A DNA stretch of 7,465 nt from Syntrophomonadaceae bacterium (GTDB lineage Bacteria > Bacillota_D > Dethiobacteria > DTU022). Within the stretch, counting starts at the first letter, position 1, and each line of letters starts with the position of its first letter. The stretch is taken from the NCBI GenBank assembly GCA_003562605.1, contig PWUG01000405.1, forward strand, positions 1-7,465. The letters run 5' to 3'. Below, one piece after another: positions 1 to 7,465 of this stretch. The translations under genes and the position numbers were made by a program. The notes under the pieces are model-generated. The model searched no databases. It was not told the DNA's origin and was given only the letters and a program-made list of their open reading frames with translations.

Positions 1-139
1 TACAAGGTATGGCATTCATCTTGGGCAAAATTTAGTTCTTGATGAACTTGCAGAAGATAAGGTTTATGAATCCATGTTCATTTTTACCTGCCCCAAGATA
101 ACAGGTACAACTCAGGGCATTGGACAGCCCATTGCTATA
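1..139 (+). repeat. Direct repeat copy 1 (cyclase C-terminal segment)
   Basis: These 139 bases are repeated at 919-1057, an offset of exactly 918 bp (306 codons, in frame). Only two mismatches are seen: T112 versus C1030 and C118 versus A1036. Both are third-codon-position changes that keep Thr and Gly. The similarity ends immediately after GCTATA, where copy 1 continues into the linker. The left limit is unknown because the window begins inside the repeat. Confidence 0.97.
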
Positions 140-1063
140 GCAGATGGCCCTTCTCCAGCTGAAGCCCCCGAAATTTACTCAGATCCTCAGAACTTTGAAG
201 AGAAGTGGTGGCCATCGCGGTATGGTGAGGGAGATAAGCTTGGTTCTGCTAATGAACTTACCGGTGAAAAAATTGTAGAAGCAGCCAAGCTAGTTAGCGA
301 GGGGTTAGTATATGATTTAGGTACAACTTATGAGTCAGCTAACCCGGGATACCCCCCTCGCTTATGGAATAACTTGGTTCTTTCTCATGGAGCAATGGAC
401 CCACTTGGCTCAAATAAGCTTCTTTACCTGGAAGAGATTTTTATTGGATGCCCTGGAAAAGGAACGCAGCTTGATGGTTTTGCTCATGTTTCAATAGACG
501 GTATTTTTTACAATGGCTTCGAGATGGAAGAGGTTTTCTCGGCTGATGGTGTCAAGAAATTTGGAGTAGAAGACTATCGACCTATGGTAACCAGAGGTTT
601 ATTAATCGATCTGGTGGCATACAAGGGGCGATATCTTGAGCCGAGTGAGCCAATTACTGTAGCTGATATAGAAGGCTTTCTTGATGAGTATGATCTAGAA
701 GTTCGTCCTGGGGACGCAGTGCTGATTCGCACAGGCTGGATAAGATATTTTTGGGAAGATCCTGAAAAGTTTATGGAATCCGAACCTGGTATTACAAAAG
801 AAGTTGCAAAGTGGCTTTATGACCAGCGAGTTGTGCTAGTGGGTACTGACCAATGGGCTACTGAAGTTCTGCCTTCAGAAGATCCTAATGAAGTATTTCC
901 GGTTCACCAGGATCTACTTACAAGGTATGGCATTCATCTTGGGCAAAATTTAGTTCTTGATGAACTTGCAGAAGATAAGGTTTATGAATCCATGTTCATT
1001 TTTACCTGCCCCAAGATAACAGGTACAACCCAGGGAATTGGACAGCCCATTGCTATAAAATAA
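2..1063 (+). CDS. Cyclase-family hydrolase, tandem-domain, 5' end outside window
   Basis: Probable metal-dependent hydrolase of the cyclase/kynurenine formamidase-like family (PF04199-like), whose members open cyclic amides, lactones or related rings; the substrate here is unknown. The frame is open from base 2 with no stop. The first 46 codons are the C-terminal end of one cyclase domain (ends GQPIAI). A linker of about 17 residues (nt 140-190, ADGPSPAEAPEIYSDPQ) follows, then a complete second domain (nt 191-1063) that ends with the same sequence plus Lys-stop. Family marks in the second domain: GTQLDGFAH at nt 461-487, RGLLID near 593, RTGW near 728, TDQWATEV near 844. Relative to the classical HxGTHxDxxxH metal motif, the first two His are Gly and Gln, while Asp and the last His remain. 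An ATG at 74 gives 329 aa but lies inside the duplicated C-terminal segment with only a weak AAGG upstream, and no other in-frame start precedes the second domain, so I treat the gene as running in from upstream. Family call is firm; two-domain architecture is likely. Confidence 0.82.
   Translation, partial: TRYGIHLGQNLVLDELAEDKVYESMFIFTCPKITGTTQGIGQPIAIADGPSPAEAPEIYSDPQNFEEKWWPSRYGEGDKLGSANELTGEKIVEAAKLVSEGLVYDLGTTYESANPGYPPRLWNNLVLSHGAMDPLGSNKLLYLEEIFIGCPGKGTQLDGFAHVSIDGIFYNGFEMEEVFSADGVKKFGVEDYRPMVTRGLLIDLVAYKGRYLEPSEPITVADIEGFLDEYDLEVRPGDAVLIRTGWIRYFWEDPEKFMESEPGITKEVAKWLYDQRVVLVGTDQWATEVLPSEDPNEVFPVHQDLLTRYGIHLGQNLVLDELAEDKVYESMFIFTCPKITGTTQGIGQPIAIK
919..1057 (+). repeat. Direct repeat copy 2 (cyclase C-terminal segment)
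   Basis: Second copy of the segment at 1-139, encoding the normal C-terminal end of the cyclase domain, here followed by AAA TAA. The repeat probably extends left of base 919 into whatever lies upstream of the window; only the upstream sequence can show whether the whole domain is duplicated. Confidence 0.97.
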
Positions 1064-1298: not shown

Positions 1299-2747
1299 AT
1301 GATTCGCACATCAGAAGATTATTTTCAAAGTTTAAAGGAATTAAAAACGCCCATCTGGGCCTTTGGGGAAAAGATCGATGATATACCAGATTATCCATTA
1401 TTTAGACCCCACGTCAATGCTGTTGCCAAAACATATGAACTATCTATGGACCCGCAACATGAAGATTTAATGAACACCATATCACACTTAACTGGTGAAA
1501 AAATAAGCAGGTTTAATCACATTCACCAAAGTAGGGAGGACCTGCTTAAAAAAGTAAAAATGCTACGCATGATTAACCAGCAAACAGCTTGCTGTATTCA
1601 GCGTTGTGCCGGGATGGATGCGATGAATGCTACGTATACAGTAACATACGAAATTGATCAAAAGCATGGCACATCTTACCACGAGAAATTTAAAAAATTT
1701 GTAGAAAAATTACAAAAAGAAAATCTAGTAACTATTGGAGCAATGACAGATGTTAAAGGAGACCGCAGCAGAAAGCCAAGTAAACAAACTGATCCAGATA
1801 TGTTTGTCCACGTTGTTGAGGAACGAGACGACGGTATAATTGTTCGTGGGGCCAAGGCTCATTTGACCGGAGTGACCGGTGCACACCAAGTGCTGGTTTT
1901 CCCCACAGAGAATATGGGAGAAGAAGATAAAGATTATGCTGTAGTATTCTCTATGCCTGTTAACACAGCTGGAGTCACTTATATTTTTGGAAGGCAGACC
2001 AATGACACTCGCAAAATGGAAGAAGGCGACATGGATAAAGGCAACGCACAGTTTGCCATGGTTGGTGGCGAATGTCTAGCTGTATTCGATGATGTGTTTG
2101 TTCCGTGGGAAAACGTCTACATGTACAAAGAATATGAATTCGCAGGATTGTTTGTAGAACGGTTCGCCTCAGCGCACAGACAGAATTACGGTGCCTGCAA
2201 AGGTGGTATTGCCGATGTCATTATGGGTGCAGCGTATAATATTGTAAAATATAACGGTGTAGAAAAGGCCTCTCACATTCGGGACAAATTTGCAGAAATG
2301 ATTCACTTAACAGAAACACTATATTCAGGTTCTATTGCCTGCTCCAGTGAAGGGCGTCCAACAGCCTCTGGAGCTTTTGTTCCTGATACCATGTTAGCCA
2401 ACGCTACAAAATTAAATACAACACGTTTCGTCTATGAAATTGGACGTCTTTCTCACGATATTTGTGGTGGGTTTTTAGCTACAATGCCTTCGGAAAAGGA
2501 TTTTCGTCATCCTGAACTGCATCCTTTAATCGACAAATATCTTAAGGGAGTAGATGGAATTACCACTGAGCAAAAAATGCGCATGTTCCGCTTGGTAGAA
2601 TCGCTTACCGGTGGTACTGCAGTAGTTGAAGCTATGCATGGTGCTGGTCCCCCACAAGCTCAAAGAATCATGATGCTGCGTGGTGCCAATCTCCCCATGA
2701 AAGGAAAACTTGCAGATAACATTGCCGGTGTAAACAACGAAGAATAA
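1299..2747 (+). CDS. abfD: 4-hydroxybutyryl-CoA dehydratase / vinylacetyl-CoA isomerase family protein
   Basis: 482-aa flavin and [4Fe-4S] enzyme of the HpaB/4-hydroxybutyryl-CoA dehydratase family. The family converts 4-hydroxybutyryl-CoA to crotonyl-CoA by a ketyl-radical mechanism and isomerises vinylacetyl-CoA; it is cytoplasmic and oxygen-sensitive. The start, length and residue pattern agree with the Clostridium aminobutyricum enzyme as I recall it (about 490 aa). All four cluster ligands are in place: Cys99 and Cys103 (TACCIQRCAGMD), His293 and Cys300 (AHRQNYGACKGG). The proposed catalytic residues also have counterparts: Tyr297, Lys301, Glu258 (GGECLAVFD) and Glu445 (EAMHGAGPPQAQR). 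The GAMTDVKGDR segment near residue 147 matches the flavin-binding region. The C-terminal third is slightly shorter than the reference, mainly a lost loop around residues 400-420. It heads a gene block for CoA-thioester oxidation and is followed 36 nt later by the thiolase. Substrate could be a relative of 4-hydroxybutyryl-CoA. Confidence 0.93.
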   Translation: MIRTSEDYFQSLKELKTPIWAFGEKIDDIPDYPLFRPHVNAVAKTYELSMDPQHEDLMNTISHLTGEKISRFNHIHQSREDLLKKVKMLRMINQQTACCIQRCAGMDAMNATYTVTYEIDQKHGTSYHEKFKKFVEKLQKENLVTIGAMTDVKGDRSRKPSKQTDPDMFVHVVEERDDGIIVRGAKAHLTGVTGAHQVLVFPTENMGEEDKDYAVVFSMPVNTAGVTYIFGRQTNDTRKMEEGDMDKGNAQFAMVGGECLAVFDDVFVPWENVYMYKEYEFAGLFVERFASAHRQNYGACKGGIADVIMGAAYNIVKYNGVEKASHIRDKFAEMIHLTETLYSGSIACSSEGRPTASGAFVPDTMLANATKLNTTRFVYEIGRLSHDICGGFLATMPSEKDFRHPELHPLIDKYLKGVDGITTEQKMRMFRLVESLTGGTAVVEAMHGAGPPQAQRIMMLRGANLPMKGKLADNIAGVNNEE

Positions 2748-2766
2748 TATATCATATTCATATCTG

Positions 2767-2775
2767 AAAGGGGAG
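2767..2775 (+). promoter_or_regulatory. Ribosome binding site deciding TTG start of thiolase
   Basis: AAAGGGGAG lies 8 nt before TTG 2784. It overlaps the in-frame GTG at 2775, so that GTG cannot be the initiator used with this site. Confidence 0.7.
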
Positions 2776-2783
2776 TGACTTAC

Positions 2784-3962
2784 TTGGAAGATGTTGTAAT
2801 TGTTTCCGGTGCGAGAACACCCATAGGAGATTTTGGAGGTTCCCTACGCAGCATTTTGCCGCATCAACTTGCAATAATAGTTGTCCAGGAAGTACTAAAG
2901 CGTGCCAGATTAGATGCTGAAGTGGTGGAAGAAGTAATTTTGGGCAATTGTTTGCAACGTAGTGACGAACCTAACCTGGCTAGAGTTGTTTCCTTGCTTG
3001 CAGGGATGCCTAAAGAAACAACAGGTTTTACCATTCAGAGTCAGTGCAGTTCAGCAATGCAGGCCATTGTATCTGGAATACAGGAAATAAAGCTAGGAGA
3101 TGCTGAAATAGTCGTTGCTGGAGGCGTGGAATCAATGAGCAGCGCCCCATACGTCTTGAAAGATGCTCGTTGGGGAGCTCGTCTGCAACACAAAGAAATG
3201 ACCGATTCTCTTTGGGAGCTGCTGATGGACCCAATCCATAAGATTATGATGGGAGAAACAGCTGAAAATTTAGCAGTTAAGCATGAAATAACTAGAGAAG
3301 AGCAAGATGAGATAGCTTTTCGCAGTCATAAAAATGCTTCTCAAGCCATACAAAAAGGCAAGTTCAAAGATGAGATCGTGCCTGTGCCTGTTCCTCAGCG
3401 AAAAGGTGATCCTGTCTTCGTTGATACCGATGAACATCCGCGATCTGATATCACCATCGAGGACTTAGCGTCCTTGAAGCCTGTTTTTAAAAAAGGAGGA
3501 ACAGTAACAGCAGGTAATTCATCCGGGCTTAATGACGGGGCGGCGGCTGTAGTTTTAATGAGTGCTAAAAAGGCAGACTTTTTGGGTATTCAACCGCTAG
3601 CGCGAATTGTATCCTACGCTTGGGCTGGAGTAGAGCCGGAATTAATGGGTTATGGTCCTGTACCAGCGACACATAAGGTACTAAAAAAAGCCGGCTTGAA
3701 ATTAGAAGATATGGAGTTAATTGAATTAAACGAAGCATTTGCAGCCCAGTATTTGGCTTGTGAAAAACTGTTGGGTTTAAATCGAGAGATAACCAATGTT
3801 AATGGCAGCGGTGTTGCCTTAGGTCATCCTGTGGGCTGTACAGGTGCACGCATTGTGGTGACATTATTACATGAAATGGCCCGCAGGGATTTAAAAACAG
3901 GATTAGCTTCGCTTTGTGTTGGCGGTGGAATGGGAATGTCCATGATTCTGGAAAGAATTTAA
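2784..3962 (+). CDS. Thiolase (acetyl-CoA C-acetyltransferase family)
   Basis: 392-aa thiolase, expected to cleave a 3-ketoacyl-CoA such as acetoacetyl-CoA with CoA to give acetyl-CoA, or run the reverse condensation. I choose TTG 2784 over the upstream GTG 2775: the ribosome binding site then has normal 8-nt spacing and the protein begins [15 protein letters not shown], the usual thiolase start. With this start the catalytic residues fall at family-typical positions: nucleophile Cys88 ([10 protein letters not shown]), Asn316 (NEAFAAQ), His348 ([14 protein letters not shown]) and Cys378 (LCVGGGMG). The length is normal and no domain is missing. The nucleophile motif reads QCSSAMQ instead of the more common CGSGLQ or CSSGLQ, a mild change that could bear on substrate choice. 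It lies between the dehydratase and the dehydrogenase genes, which fits a terminal beta-oxidation role. Chain-length specificity cannot be read from sequence. Confidence 0.93.
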
Positions 3963-4034: not shown

Positions 4035-4886
4035 GTGGATATTAAAAAAGTGGGAGTTCTTGGCAGTGGTTCTATGGGAAACGGCATTGCTCAGGTTGCC
4101 GCGCAAGCCGGTTATGACGTGATTATGCAAGATATTAAAGAGGAATTAGCTGTTAAGGGTTTTAAAATAATACAGAAAAACATAAACCGTGATGTAGAAA
4201 AAGGCAGAAAAACGGCAGAAGAAGCTGAAAGCATTCTTTCCCGGATAAAAACAACAGCAGCAATGGAAGATTTAGCAGATATGGATATGGTTATAGAAGC
4301 GATTTTTGAGCGTATGGAAGTAAAAAAAGAGGCTTATGCCAGACTGGATAAAGTATGCAAACCGGAAACATATTTTGCCTCGAACACTTCGGGCTTAAGC
4401 ATCACAGAGATAGCATCGGCTACTGAAAGGTCAGAAAAAGTAGTTGGTATGCATTTTTTCAACCCGGTTCCATTGATGAAACTTGTAGAAGTAATTCGTG
4501 GAATTAACACATCGGAGGAGACTTTTGAGTTGGCCATAGGAGTTACCAGAAAGCTAGGTAAAGAACCTATAGCGGTTGAGGAAGCTCCTCTTTTTGCAGT
4601 GAACCGCATATTGGTTCCCATGATTAATGAAGCAATCTTTGTGCTTATGGAGGGTGTTGCCAGTGCTGAGGACATTGATAAAGGGATGAAGCTTGGAGCT
4701 AACCATCCTATTGGACCTATTGCTCTTGCAGATTTAATTGGCCTAGATACTCTGCTCATGGTAATGGAGACTCTTTACAATGAAACAGCTGACTCTAAAT
4801 ATCGCCCATCTCCTCTTTTACGTAAGCTTGTTCGCGCGGGACACTTTGGTCGTAAAACCGGCAAGGGTTTTTATGAATACACTTAA
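4035..4886 (+). CDS. hbd: 3-hydroxyacyl-CoA dehydrogenase (3-hydroxybutyryl-CoA dehydrogenase type)
   Basis: 283-aa NAD(P)-dependent dehydrogenase interconverting (S)-3-hydroxybutyryl-CoA and acetoacetyl-CoA. Start chosen at GTG 4035, 7 nt after its ribosome binding site; an ATG at 4008 would add nine residues but lies within the right arm of the stem-loop and ahead of the ribosome binding site. The chosen start gives MDIKKVGVLGSGSMGNG, with the Rossmann glycine motif GxGxMGxG at residues 10-17, and the length usual for short monofunctional enzymes. Catalytic features: Ser119 (SNTSG), His140 (GMHFFNP), Glu152 (LVEVI), Asn190 (VNRI). The C-terminal dimer domain ends with GRKTGKGFYEY. The segment before Asn190 reads APLFAVNRI, where PGFVVNR is usual, a small deviation. 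Seventeen nt separate it from the next gene, so the two are almost surely co-transcribed. Confidence 0.94.
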   Translation: MDIKKVGVLGSGSMGNGIAQVAAQAGYDVIMQDIKEELAVKGFKIIQKNINRDVEKGRKTAEEAESILSRIKTTAAMEDLADMDMVIEAIFERMEVKKEAYARLDKVCKPETYFASNTSGLSITEIASATERSEKVVGMHFFNPVPLMKLVEVIRGINTSEETFELAIGVTRKLGKEPIAVEEAPLFAVNRILVPMINEAIFVLMEGVASAEDIDKGMKLGANHPIGPIALADLIGLDTLLMVMETLYNETADSKYRPSPLLRKLVRAGHFGRKTGKGFYEYT

Positions 4887-4903: not shown

Positions 4904-5686
4904 ATGACATACGAAACATTGAATTATACTGTTAAAGGCAAGGTTGCGCTTATTCAGTTAAATAGGCCGGAATCAATGAATGCGCTGGAAGACAAACTAA
5001 TGGCTGAATTAATGTATGTTACGAATGTAGTTGAAAAGGAAGAAGATATTGGAGCTGTTGTGCTTACAGGTTCAGGGAAAGCTTTTTGCGCAGGAGGTGA
5101 TTTGCGTCGTCTGGAAGAAGGATTTTCTCCTCTGGAGGGTTATGATTATATAAAAGATTTTCACCCTTGGCTTATCAAATTTTCCAGGTTGGAAAAACCG
5201 GTAATCGCTGCTGTGAATGGATTTGCAGTAGGGGCAGGATTTTGTATATCTTTATCTTGTGATATTGTGTTAGCTTCGAAAGAAGCCATATTTGCTCAAT
5301 CTTTTGTTAATGTAGGGTTAATACCTGACCTTGGGGGATTATATTTTTTGCCCAGACTGGTAGGCTTACAAAAAGCCAAGGAGTTAGTATTTACCGGGGA
5401 AAAAATTAGTGCGGAAGAAGCCAAGGAACTGGGAATAGTGAATAAAATTTTACCTGGTGATCAATTACTGGGAGAAGCCGAGGCACTTGCCCAGAAACTG
5501 GCTAAAGGACCCAGGGTAGCCCACCGCTTGGCGAAACAGATCATTAACCAGAGCCTTGAACTGAGCCTTGAAGAATTGTTATCACTAGAAGCCAATGCAC
5601 AGTCTCTTTGCTTCCAAACGGAAGATCATTCGGAAGCTGTAAAAGCTTTTTTAGAAAAGAGAAAACCTGTTTTCAAAGGGAAGTAA
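4904..5686 (+). CDS. Enoyl-CoA hydratase/isomerase family protein, isomerase-type active site
   Basis: 260-aa crotonase-fold protein. Start ATG 4904 is preceded by AGAGGAGG with 8-nt spacing. The CoA-binding and oxyanion-hole segments are present: FCAGGDLRRL (residues 61-70) and NGFAVGAGF (105-113). By motif alignment, the two glutamates that activate water in true enoyl-CoA hydratases (Glu144 and Glu164 in the rat enzyme) are replaced by Cys114 and Phe134. By contrast, Asp142 in GLIPDLGG matches the catalytic Asp of PaaG-type and delta3,delta2-enoyl-CoA isomerases, and the whole C-terminal half (LPRLVG, AFLEKRKPVFKGK) reads like PaaG. I therefore favour a double-bond isomerase or another PaaG-like reaction over hydration, although automatic annotation would probably say enoyl-CoA hydratase. 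It sits directly between the dehydrogenase and CoA-transferase genes. Family is certain; reaction is inferred. Confidence 0.9.
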   Translation: MTYETLNYTVKGKVALIQLNRPESMNALEDKLMAELMYVTNVVEKEEDIGAVVLTGSGKAFCAGGDLRRLEEGFSPLEGYDYIKDFHPWLIKFSRLEKPVIAAVNGFAVGAGFCISLSCDIVLASKEAIFAQSFVNVGLIPDLGGLYFLPRLVGLQKAKELVFTGEKISAEEAKELGIVNKILPGDQLLGEAEALAQKLAKGPRVAHRLAKQIINQSLELSLEELLSLEANAQSLCFQTEDHSEAVKAFLEKRKPVFKGK

Positions 5687-5697
5687 GGGATGGTTAG

Positions 5698-6930
5698 ATG
5701 ATGTTAACACTAAATAACGAAGGGAAAAATAAAATATTTGAAGGGATTCGAGTATTAGATTTTACCAGGGTGTTGGCTGGTCCATACTGCACCCGTTTGT
5801 TGGCAGACATGGGTGCGGAAGTAATAAAAGTTGAACAGCCTGGCATTGGAGATGATGCCCGACACTTTCCTTATTATTTAGATCAAGGTGATACAGGATA
5901 CTATTTACAGCAGAACTGTGGCAAAAAAAGTATTAGTTTGGATATGAAAAAAAAAGAAACAATTGAAATACTAAAAAAATTGGTTGTTGTAAGTGATATT
6001 GTAGTTGAAAATTTTAGGCCCGGGGTTATGGCTAAATATGGTCTGGATTATAATAGTTTGAGATTGCGCAAAAAAGACCTGATCATGTGTTCAATTTCTG
6101 CTTTTGGTCAAACAGGCCCTTATTCTCCATTTGTTGGTAATGATTTGACTACTCAAGCTATGAGTGGGTTTATGGATATGACAGGACACCCCGATGGTCC
6201 ACCGACCCAAGTAGGAACCAGCATTGGTGATACAATTGCTGGTTCTCATGCTTTTGGCGCGATTGCTTCTGCGCTGTATCGAAGGGAGCGAACAGGGGAA
6301 GGAGAATATATAGATATCGCTATGTTGGATTGTATGTTTTCCCAGTTTGAAATTGCCATACAGAGTTATATTCTTAGCAATGGGGAGATCAAACCAAGAA
6401 GATTTGGCAGTCACCATCCAACTGTTGTACCACTTGGCGCATATGAAGCAAAAGATGGTTGGATAATCGTAGGAGTCTTTAATGATAGCACTTGGAACCG
6501 GTTAGCTGAAACAATGGGCCAAACAGAACTCATAGATGATCCAAGATTTATGGGCAATACAGCACGTGCTGAGAACAAGAATACGGTTATCAAAATTATA
6601 CAAGAATGGATAAAGAATTTGACAGTAAAACAGGCTCTTGATGTTTTAAGAGAAGCACGTGTTTTAACTGCTCCAGTACTTTCAATACAGGAATTAGTAA
6701 ATGACCCGCAAATAAGAGCTAGAGAAATGCTGGTTCAAGTAGAACATCGTAAATTAGGCTCAGTTGAAATAATTAATTCGCCTATCAAGCTTACGAATAC
6801 AGAAGCTTGTGTTTCGGGAAGAGCGGCATTACTAGGTGAACACAACCACGAAATCTTAGAATTATTGGGTCATTCAATTGATGAAATTAACTTGTTAAGA
6901 GAAAATAAAGTGACTTACGAAGATCTTTGA
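5698..6930 (+). CDS. Class III CoA-transferase (CaiB/BaiF family)
   Basis: 410-aa family III acyl-CoA transferase, which moves CoA between carboxylic acids through enzyme-bound aspartyl intermediates. Family marks in order: GIRVLDFTRVLAGPYCTRLLADMGAEVIKVE (residues 16-46; split as GIRVLDF, AGPYCTRLLADMGA, EVIKVE), ENFRPGVMAKYGLDY (104-118), CSISAFGQTGPY (131-142), and VGTSIGDTIAG (172-182). The last contains Asp178, the counterpart of the catalytic Asp169 of formyl-CoA transferase. The length is normal. Two consecutive ATG codons (5698 and 5701) follow a weak GGGA 7 nt upstream; either could be used. The gene starts 11 nt after the crotonase stop, so translation may be coupled. It is the likely activation enzyme of the pathway; the donor and acceptor acids cannot be told from sequence. 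Confidence 0.92.
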   Translation: MMLTLNNEGKNKIFEGIRVLDFTRVLAGPYCTRLLADMGAEVIKVEQPGIGDDARHFPYYLDQGDTGYYLQQNCGKKSISLDMKKKETIEILKKLVVVSDIVVENFRPGVMAKYGLDYNSLRLRKKDLIMCSISAFGQTGPYSPFVGNDLTTQAMSGFMDMTGHPDGPPTQVGTSIGDTIAGSHAFGAIASALYRRERTGEGEYIDIAMLDCMFSQFEIAIQSYILSNGEIKPRRFGSHHPTVVPLGAYEAKDGWIIVGVFNDSTWNRLAETMGQTELIDDPRFMGNTARAENKNTVIKIIQEWIKNLTVKQALDVLREARVLTAPVLSIQELVNDPQIRAREMLVQVEHRKLGSVEIINSPIKLTNTEACVSGRAALLGEHNHEILELLGHSIDEINLLRENKVTYEDL

Positions 6931-6959
6931 TTGCAGAGATTATTTTTGGGTTTTAAAAG

Positions 6960-6968
6960 AAAGGAGGT
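6960..6968 (+). promoter_or_regulatory. Strong ribosome binding site ahead of leader frame and mutase
   Basis: AAAGGAGGT is a near-perfect anti-Shine-Dalgarno match. It is only 5 nt before TTG 6974 but 43 nt before the mutase ATG 7012. Either it serves a short leader frame, or the intervening hairpin folds away and brings it to about 12 nt from the mutase start. Confidence 0.75.
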
Positions 6969-6971
6969 AAT

Positions 6972-7003
6972 ACTTGGCTTCCGTGAAGCACGGAAGCCCA
7001 AGT
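6972..7003 (+). promoter_or_regulatory. Stem-loop between ribosome binding site and mutase start
   Basis: Left arm ACTTGGCTTCCGTG (6972-6985) pairs with right arm CACGGAAGCCCAAGT (6989-7003). This gives 14 base pairs with a single bulged C (6999) and a 3-nt loop AAG. The inner 10 bp are perfect and GC-rich. No T-run follows, so it does not look like an intrinsic terminator. Its place between the ribosome binding site and the mutase start suggests a translational role or a junction scar. Confidence 0.8.
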
Positions 7004-7012
7004 TATGGATAA
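6974..7012 (+). CDS. Possible 12-codon leader peptide overlapping mutase start
   Basis: TTG 6974, 5 nt after a very strong ribosome binding site, opens a 12-codon frame ([13 protein letters not shown]) whose TAA stop overlaps the mutase ATG as TAATG, the classic geometry for translational coupling. The start codon is buried in the left arm of the stem-loop. TTG use is plausible since the thiolase here also appears to start with TTG. It may equally be chance; the peptide resembles nothing I recognise. Confidence 0.3.
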
Positions 7013-7465
7013 TGTTTAAAGATGAAAAGCTAAAGCAGATCGAAGCAGGCAAGGAAAAGTGGGAACAAGAGACCCGTCCCAAGTTTAAGGACCGGCCCGC
7101 GAAATTTGTCACGGTTTCCAGCAAGCCCCTGAACGAACTCTATACCCCCCTGGATATTCAAGACCTGGACTACGAGCAAGACCTGGGCTTTCCCGGCGAA
7201 TATCCCTATACCCGCGGGGTGCAGGGGAACATGTATCGCGGCCGCATCTGGACCATGCGGCAGTTTTCCGGTTTTGGCACGGCGAAAGAGACCAACGAGC
7301 GCTACAAGTACCTCTTAAAACACGGCCAGACCGGGTTAAGTGTTGCCTTTGACATGCCCACGATCATGGGCTACGATTCGGACCATCCCCGCGCCCTGGG
7401 GGAGGTGGGCCGCTGCGGGGTGGCCATCGACTCCCTGGCCGACATGGAAGTCCTGTTCGACGGCA
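7012..7465 (+). CDS. B12-dependent acyl-CoA mutase large subunit (isobutyryl/methylmalonyl-CoA mutase family), 3' end outside window
   Basis: First 151 codons of a coenzyme-B12-dependent carbon-skeleton mutase substrate-binding subunit, which rearranges acyl-CoAs such as isobutyryl- to butyryl-CoA or methylmalonyl- to succinyl-CoA. Family segments seen: [15 protein letters not shown] (residues 58-72), [21 protein letters not shown] (78-98), [13 protein letters not shown] (105-117), GYDSDHP (120-126), [16 protein letters not shown] (136-151). At the position after RQ, where methylmalonyl-CoA mutase has Tyr89, this protein has Phe85, as in isobutyryl-CoA mutases; hydroxyisobutyryl-CoA mutase has Ile there. 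The second specificity residue lies past the window, as would any B12 domain or separate small subunit gene. ATG 7012 gives a normal N-terminus ([18 protein letters not shown]). The frame stays open upstream to 6931, but without a suitable start. Codon use is strongly GC-rich compared with all upstream genes. Confidence 0.88.

Follow-up and report, generated by a model that had tools for sequence, protein, structure and literature searches.

Probable fragment of a rare double-domain PF04199 cyclase with near-identical, probably recently homogenised domain ends in a Syntrophomonadaceae bacterium

In the isatin hydrolase dimer an N-terminal helix and a larger beta-hairpin are swapped, so that the pocket of one monomer is lined by residues from its partner (PMC6117287). 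The active site of KynB, whose chains are about 23 kDa, is likewise described as one to which the partner subunit contributes (PMC4243253). A third enzyme, the dihydrophloroglucinol cyclohydrolase CsDPGC, is a ring opener of the "cyclase" family from an anaerobe (PMC10470551). Isatin hydrolase (4j0n, 5nmp) and KynB (4co9) share their fold with the domain described here. The best solved match to it is 5ibz [phmmer E 1.2e-34; Foldseek E 3.3e-29, TM 0.83–0.84 by query], a 323-aa chain deposited as an "uncharacterized protein" under the title "a novel cyclase (pfam04199)"; in our sequence the corresponding domain is instead fused to another. Among the titles and abstract starts listed in literature searches, a coverage from which subscription papers are mostly absent, none dealt with double PF04199 proteins.

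The DNA analysed (the window) is a stretch of 7,465 nucleotides, contig PWUG01000405.1 of assembly GCA_003562605.1. Its features are collected in Table 1. An open frame (frame 2) runs from base 2 to a stop at 1061–1063 and specifies 353 residues, the gene beginning before the window. The frame has one Pfam cyclase match [PF04199, 84.4 bits against a gathering cut-off of 23.1, E 1.1e-23], since the first domain is present as only 46 codons. The structure model of the second domain has a mean pLDDT of 93.8. A first-pass annotation, made from the letters alone, had read this frame as a cyclase tail, a linker and a whole second domain; that order stands, with a linker of 22 codons rather than about 17.

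Table 1. Coordinates of features in the window
Feature	Position	Strand	Basis
C-terminal 46 codons of first cyclase domain, truncated by window edge	2..139	+	Repeat; alignment with nine double-domain proteins
Inter-domain linker, 22 codons, up to WWPSRYG	140..205	+	Aligned with linkers of nine double-domain proteins
Complete second cyclase domain and stop; PF04199 at 311–865	206..1063	+	Pfam, structure model, PDB match
Predicted beta hairpin	365..448	+	Secondary structure of model; presumed equivalence to isatin hydrolase hairpin by counting
Metal-site motif region GKGTQLDGFAH	455..487	+	Isatin hydrolase counterpart HxG[T/A]HxDxPxH
Second copy of near-identical domain end	919..1057	+	Repeat comparison
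4-Hydroxybutyryl-CoA dehydratase/vinylacetyl-CoA isomerase-like protein (HpaB family)	1299..2747	+	Pfam, CIQRC and HRQNYGAC
Thiolase	2775..3962	+	Profile match
3-Hydroxybutyryl-CoA dehydrogenase	4035..4886	+	NF004474, 432 bits against cut-off 408
Enoyl-CoA hydratase/isomerase family protein	4904..5686	+	Profile match
Family III CoA-transferase (CaiB-like)	5698..6930	+	Pfam

The ends of the two domains are nearly the same at the level of DNA. Bases 1–139 and 919–1057 differ at only two places, 112 (T/C) and 118 (C/A), both synonymous as had been claimed, and bases 1–111 are exactly identical to their counterpart; from base 140 onward the copies part ways. The 46 residues are all the same, 44 of the 46 codons agree, and two of 20 four-fold sites differ. 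The copies lie 918 bases apart, that is, the 306 codons previously given for the repeat unit. On its left side the repeat runs into the window edge, and it is the spacing that is established and not the full extent of the unit. The statement that no start codon lies between base 140 and the core of the second domain was likewise confirmed: after an in-frame ATG at base 74, in the tail of the first domain and by eye without a clear ribosome-binding site, the next ATG, GTG or TTG codons, at 374 and 395, already belong to the second domain. Since none occurs between 140 and 373, this interval offers the second domain no separate start.

The top match of the frame, among the best 120 of 728, is a protein of 602 aa (P0001). 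When this was used as query, nine of 105 matches, itself included, were 602–647 aa in length. The first-pass annotation had proposed a search for proteins of about 610 aa that carry two PF04199 domains; these nine, together with one genome locus of 637 aa, are its outcome, and we refer to P0001, P0122–P0129 and that locus, L001, as the double group. A domain-start motif of the WWPSRYG type occurs twice in all nine proteins, and Pfam finds two cyclase stretches in both double proteins scanned (P0122 and L001). Among the genome loci examined (79, from the best 80 of 176 relatives) two hold a double cyclase: L001, from a Synergistaceae MAG, and L002, a 635-aa protein of Desulfosarcina widdelii which is the same as P0126 (DSCW_05230). 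Aligned over both domains, the nine proteins place their linker as the window does. Judged by eye, that of P0122 is closest to the window's, those of P0001 and P0126 fit more poorly, and that of L001 lies at the equivalent place. P0122 is also the nearest of the double proteins in sequence, its first and second halves being 68% and 67% identical to the window's second domain. We regard it as very probable that the window gene encodes a fused double-domain cyclase. What we have would be the 3' portion of a PF04199 double-protein gene, its product measuring probably some 600–650 aa.

Such proteins look rare. At E 1e-60 one of 185 genomes from the phylum of the Synergistaceae MAG and one of 389 genomes drawn from the class of D. 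widdelii carry a double cyclase, the carrier being in each case the seed genome; each search gave one extra match, of single-domain length. A search of genome contigs with the second domain of the window alone yielded 11 pattern matches, none of which was confirmed, and a blastn search of plasmids gave no match. The N-terminus is hydrophobic in eight of the nine double proteins, which suggests export; judging from these sequences, most of the relatives probably export their enzyme.

Several single observations belong here. At the motif Asp, P0001 has G in its first half and E in its second, and both of its sites look degenerate from the sequence. A single-domain Acetomicrobium cyclase (P0007) is nested in the tree among halves that come from double proteins, perhaps having lost one half. 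On an Acidobacteria contig two cyclase frames are adjacent and unfused (L072, 3–1923). Another fusion within the PF04199 family is P0049, a protein of 511 aa that also bears PF13669 and PF00903, which we take to be glyoxalase-type families.

The halves of the nine double proteins are 39–86% identical. Between the halves of L001 and L002, 59 of 93 and 46 of 71 four-fold silent sites differ (63–65%), as against two of 20 in the window's domain ends. Since silent sites have diverged so far in these two lineages and are nearly alike in the window, the near-identity seen here is recent and the fusion appears old. Selection on the protein alone would not keep silent sites alike; the window's ends were therefore copied recently, unless the assembly misleads us. 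We favour an old fusion followed by recent partial gene conversion between the halves, to which we would give a probability of about 0.55–0.6. The near-identical ends would then be the trace of recent intragenic copying, through gene conversion or unequal exchange. The first-pass annotation had left the choice between recent duplication and conversion open, and it is the latter that is favoured, because the fusion spans distant lineages with diverged halves and half-specific residues.

Trees of the halves were built with nine single-domain rows each, picked from the 119 matches besides P0001 (best 120 of 728); the 46-codon first-half tail of the window was excluded from every tree, and L001 was included in the segment trees and is absent from the whole-domain tree. 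In the whole-domain tree the halves cluster mostly by lineage. Those of P0122 are sisters (100/99), P0123 groups with P0126, and a second group comprises P0124, P0125 and P0127–P0129, in which first halves and second halves are separate clades. When only alignment columns 1–80 are used, eight first halves group together (91/85) and eight second halves likewise (88/90), both with support below the starred threshold and with a bootstrap still unsettled; neither group takes in P0001, P0122 or the window row. A single clade of first halves is not rejected for columns 1–80 (p-AU 0.09), in part for lack of power because this segment is short, and is rejected for columns 81–283 (p-AU 8e-8). A single clade of second halves is weakly rejected even for columns 1–80 (p 0.03). 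The conflict between segments is limited to P0123 and P0126, which join the position groups in columns 1–80 and come together (93/91) in columns 81–283; in six other double proteins first and second halves stay apart in both segments. The P0122 halves are sisters (100/99) in columns 81–283, with a placement that columns 1–80 do not resolve.

By block, the halves of P0122 agree at 21/30 and 22/30 positions in blocks 1 and 2, at 29/29 and 29/30 in blocks 7 and 8, and at 19/26 in the final full block. Since its last 26 columns are less alike than its middle, the part copied in P0122 differs from that in the window, which speaks against the explanation that we prefer. We also compared the longest runs of half–half identity with 2000 shuffles of each protein, a test to which little weight is given as it ignores uneven conservation. 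The observed run was reached in no shuffle for P0124 and L001, in 3 for P0122, 11 for P0127, 63 for P0001, 86 for P0128, 248 for P0123, 285 for P0126, 1175 for P0129 and 1206 for P0125. The longest run shared by the L001 halves is 33 aa, yet silent differences remain within it, and we count this against our preferred explanation.

Some residues mark the two halves (columns numbered after the first half of P0122). G31, N32 and E55 are found in 10/10 first halves and 0/10 second halves, whereas H55 shows the reverse (10/10 second halves, 0/10 first halves); the nine single-domain rows compared have none of these four residues. Y36 and T56 are fixed in first halves and are present also in some second halves and single-domain rows. 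The second half of the window lacks G31, N32 and E55, as do the nine single-domain rows; at column 55 it has N and not H, which again counts against the reading that we prefer. Of the 61 columns from 28 to 88, seven are half-specific, against one of the 219 others up to the domain end (Fisher p 1.2e-4, a descriptive value because columns 28–88 were named after the columns had been seen, and because the ten proteins are related and not independent). In the model of window bases 140–1060 there are strands at residues 76–81 and 98–103, an apparent hairpin, and half-specific columns 53, 55, 56 and 78, mapped by counting, lie on or adjoin its strands. By analogy this hairpin is probably the counterpart of the one swapped between the subunits of isatin hydrolase. 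Across the family, copying would seem to have acted more strongly on the core than on the N-terminal strand and hairpin region, where the halves keep their own residues.

If the relatives are a guide, the two domains most likely pack as a built-in dimer, each giving its hairpin to the pocket of the other. An AlphaFold model of the whole of P0122 (9 rows) had a pLDDT of 56.6 and a pTM of 0.42, too low to judge how the halves pack. By the same analogy the half-specific hairpin residues suggest that the two pockets differ. One might go further and propose a lopsided fused dimer in which conversion keeps the cores alike, the swapped hairpins are kept different, and the two pockets come to have unlike specificity; we consider this rather doubtful. 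Dimeric enzymes which have become single chains are well suited to asking how active sites lose their symmetry, and the fused cyclases, with the range of half–half identity given above, constitute a graded series for it. The location of the half-specific residues also turns the swapped hairpin into a testable claim.

Other histories of the gene deserve consideration. The window gene might be the product of its own recent tandem duplication, separate from that of the other double proteins and maybe comprising three or more units. The nearly identical silent sites, the spacing of exactly 306 codons and the pairing in trees of halves from one lineage would all agree with this. The window linker, however, occupies the position seen in distant double proteins and partly shares their linker sequence, the second half of the window lacks the first-half marks G31, N32 and E55 (though so do the nine single-domain rows compared), and two other lineages carry the fusion with strongly diverged silent sites. 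We think a separate duplication unlikely. That the double proteins arose through several independent fusions is about equally unlikely; gene conversion would then be unneeded, the halves do cluster by lineage across most of the domain, and a single-domain protein (P0007) sits within the double group. Against it, the linkers and the half-specific residues would have to be convergent, including three residues shared by all first halves and one by all second halves that are absent from the nine single-domain rows compared, and columns 1–80 group eight first and eight second halves by position, if with sub-threshold support. One old fusion with partial copying between halves, lineage by lineage, is the simplest reading.

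Least likely of the three, in our estimate, is an effect of assembly, in which reads belonging to the second copy were used to extend the left end of the contig and the true end of the first domain is more different. Contig breaks are common inside repeats, and here the first base of the window falls within one; moreover bases 1–111 are exactly identical. The differences at 112 and 118 nevertheless lie within the repeat, beside the linker, and the linker junction is paralleled in the other double proteins. An old fusion with recent conversion remains the explanation that we prefer.

With respect to function, the motif Asp and the last His are invariant across the 104 rows of alignment A4, which holds 103 of the best 120 of 728 matches (alignment A3 holds 32). 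The KynB residues His50, His54, Asp56, His60, His161 and Glu173 correspond to G, Q, D, H, H and Q in the window, positions placed through alignments of 1r61 and 4j0n that are weak in the motif part and do not contain KynB itself; the replacement of GTH by GTQ is plain, and the place of Glu173 depends on the 1r61 alignment. For the HxG[T/A]HxDxPxH motif of isatin hydrolase the window has GKGTQLDGFAH, and for GLQC/GLAS it has LGQN near the second motif, in an alignment uncertain by about one residue. The metal-ligand positions are thus only partly kept, and by motif the domain corresponds to neither KynB nor isatin hydrolase. Of the "fused double-domain hydrolase" in the first-pass annotation, the fusion is well supported and the hydrolase unproven, several metal ligands of the characterised relatives being replaced.

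The genes downstream (Table 1) suggest anaerobic CoA-based catabolism. The product of 1299–2747 has CIQRC at residue 99 and HRQNYGAC at 293, in agreement with the CxxxC and HxxxxxxC pattern of 4-hydroxybutyryl-CoA dehydratase, residues which we take to be its iron-sulphur ligands. A loose form of the pattern is present in all 120 matches listed, several of which are named 4-hydroxybutyryl-CoA dehydratase. The enzyme might open or hydrolyse a ring, an ester or an amide, and its product could conceivably enter the neighbouring pathway. The CsDPGC gene cluster includes a dehydrogenase and a thiolase homologue, as are found near the window cyclase (PMC10470551 for CsDPGC); in contrast to CsDPGC, the seven window proteins scanned include no short-chain reductase. 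By analogy a ring-opening role ahead of a CoA pathway can be put forward tentatively. In any case an uncharacterised and probably exported type of cyclase is placed near anaerobic CoA pathways.

D. widdelii provides a partial parallel. Its double cyclase has two domains with the linker at the window's place, its halves being, as noted, strongly diverged at silent sites. A thiolase and a 3-hydroxyacyl-CoA dehydrogenase, 57% and 55% identical to those of the window, lie about 8.5 and 7.6 kb upstream of it, among genes (all at least 7.6 kb upstream) for a CoA ligase, TRAP transporter parts, two hydratase-like proteins and an HpaB-like protein. Unlike the window's, these pathway genes are not adjacent to the double cyclase, a 704-aa frame on the other strand intervening, and the HpaB-like protein is only 30% identical to that of the window and lacks both ligand patterns. 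A mutase downstream of the D. widdelii double cyclase is matched by the mutase start in the window. There is no CaiB-like match in L002, nor among 11 frames of L087. Two loci with single-domain cyclases (L037 and L047) have matches to the window's thiolase, HpaB-like protein, CaiB, hydratase and dehydrogenase. Among the window proteins only the cyclase finds matches at L001, and no HpaB-like match turns up at E 1e-30 in the genome that contains this locus; the link to the pathway is therefore not general.

A protein encoded on a 1600-base JGI contig (P0226) is, over its length, 100% identical to the product of 1299–2747, a sign that this population may have been assembled elsewhere too. The methylmalonyl-CoA mutase start at window positions 6931–7465 has a GC3 of 0.74, as against 0.29–0.35 for the six genes upstream of it. 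A hairpin is predicted at about 6972–7003, between the low-GC3 genes and the mutase start, and the segment 6931–7465 may mark either a transfer boundary or a chimeric join.
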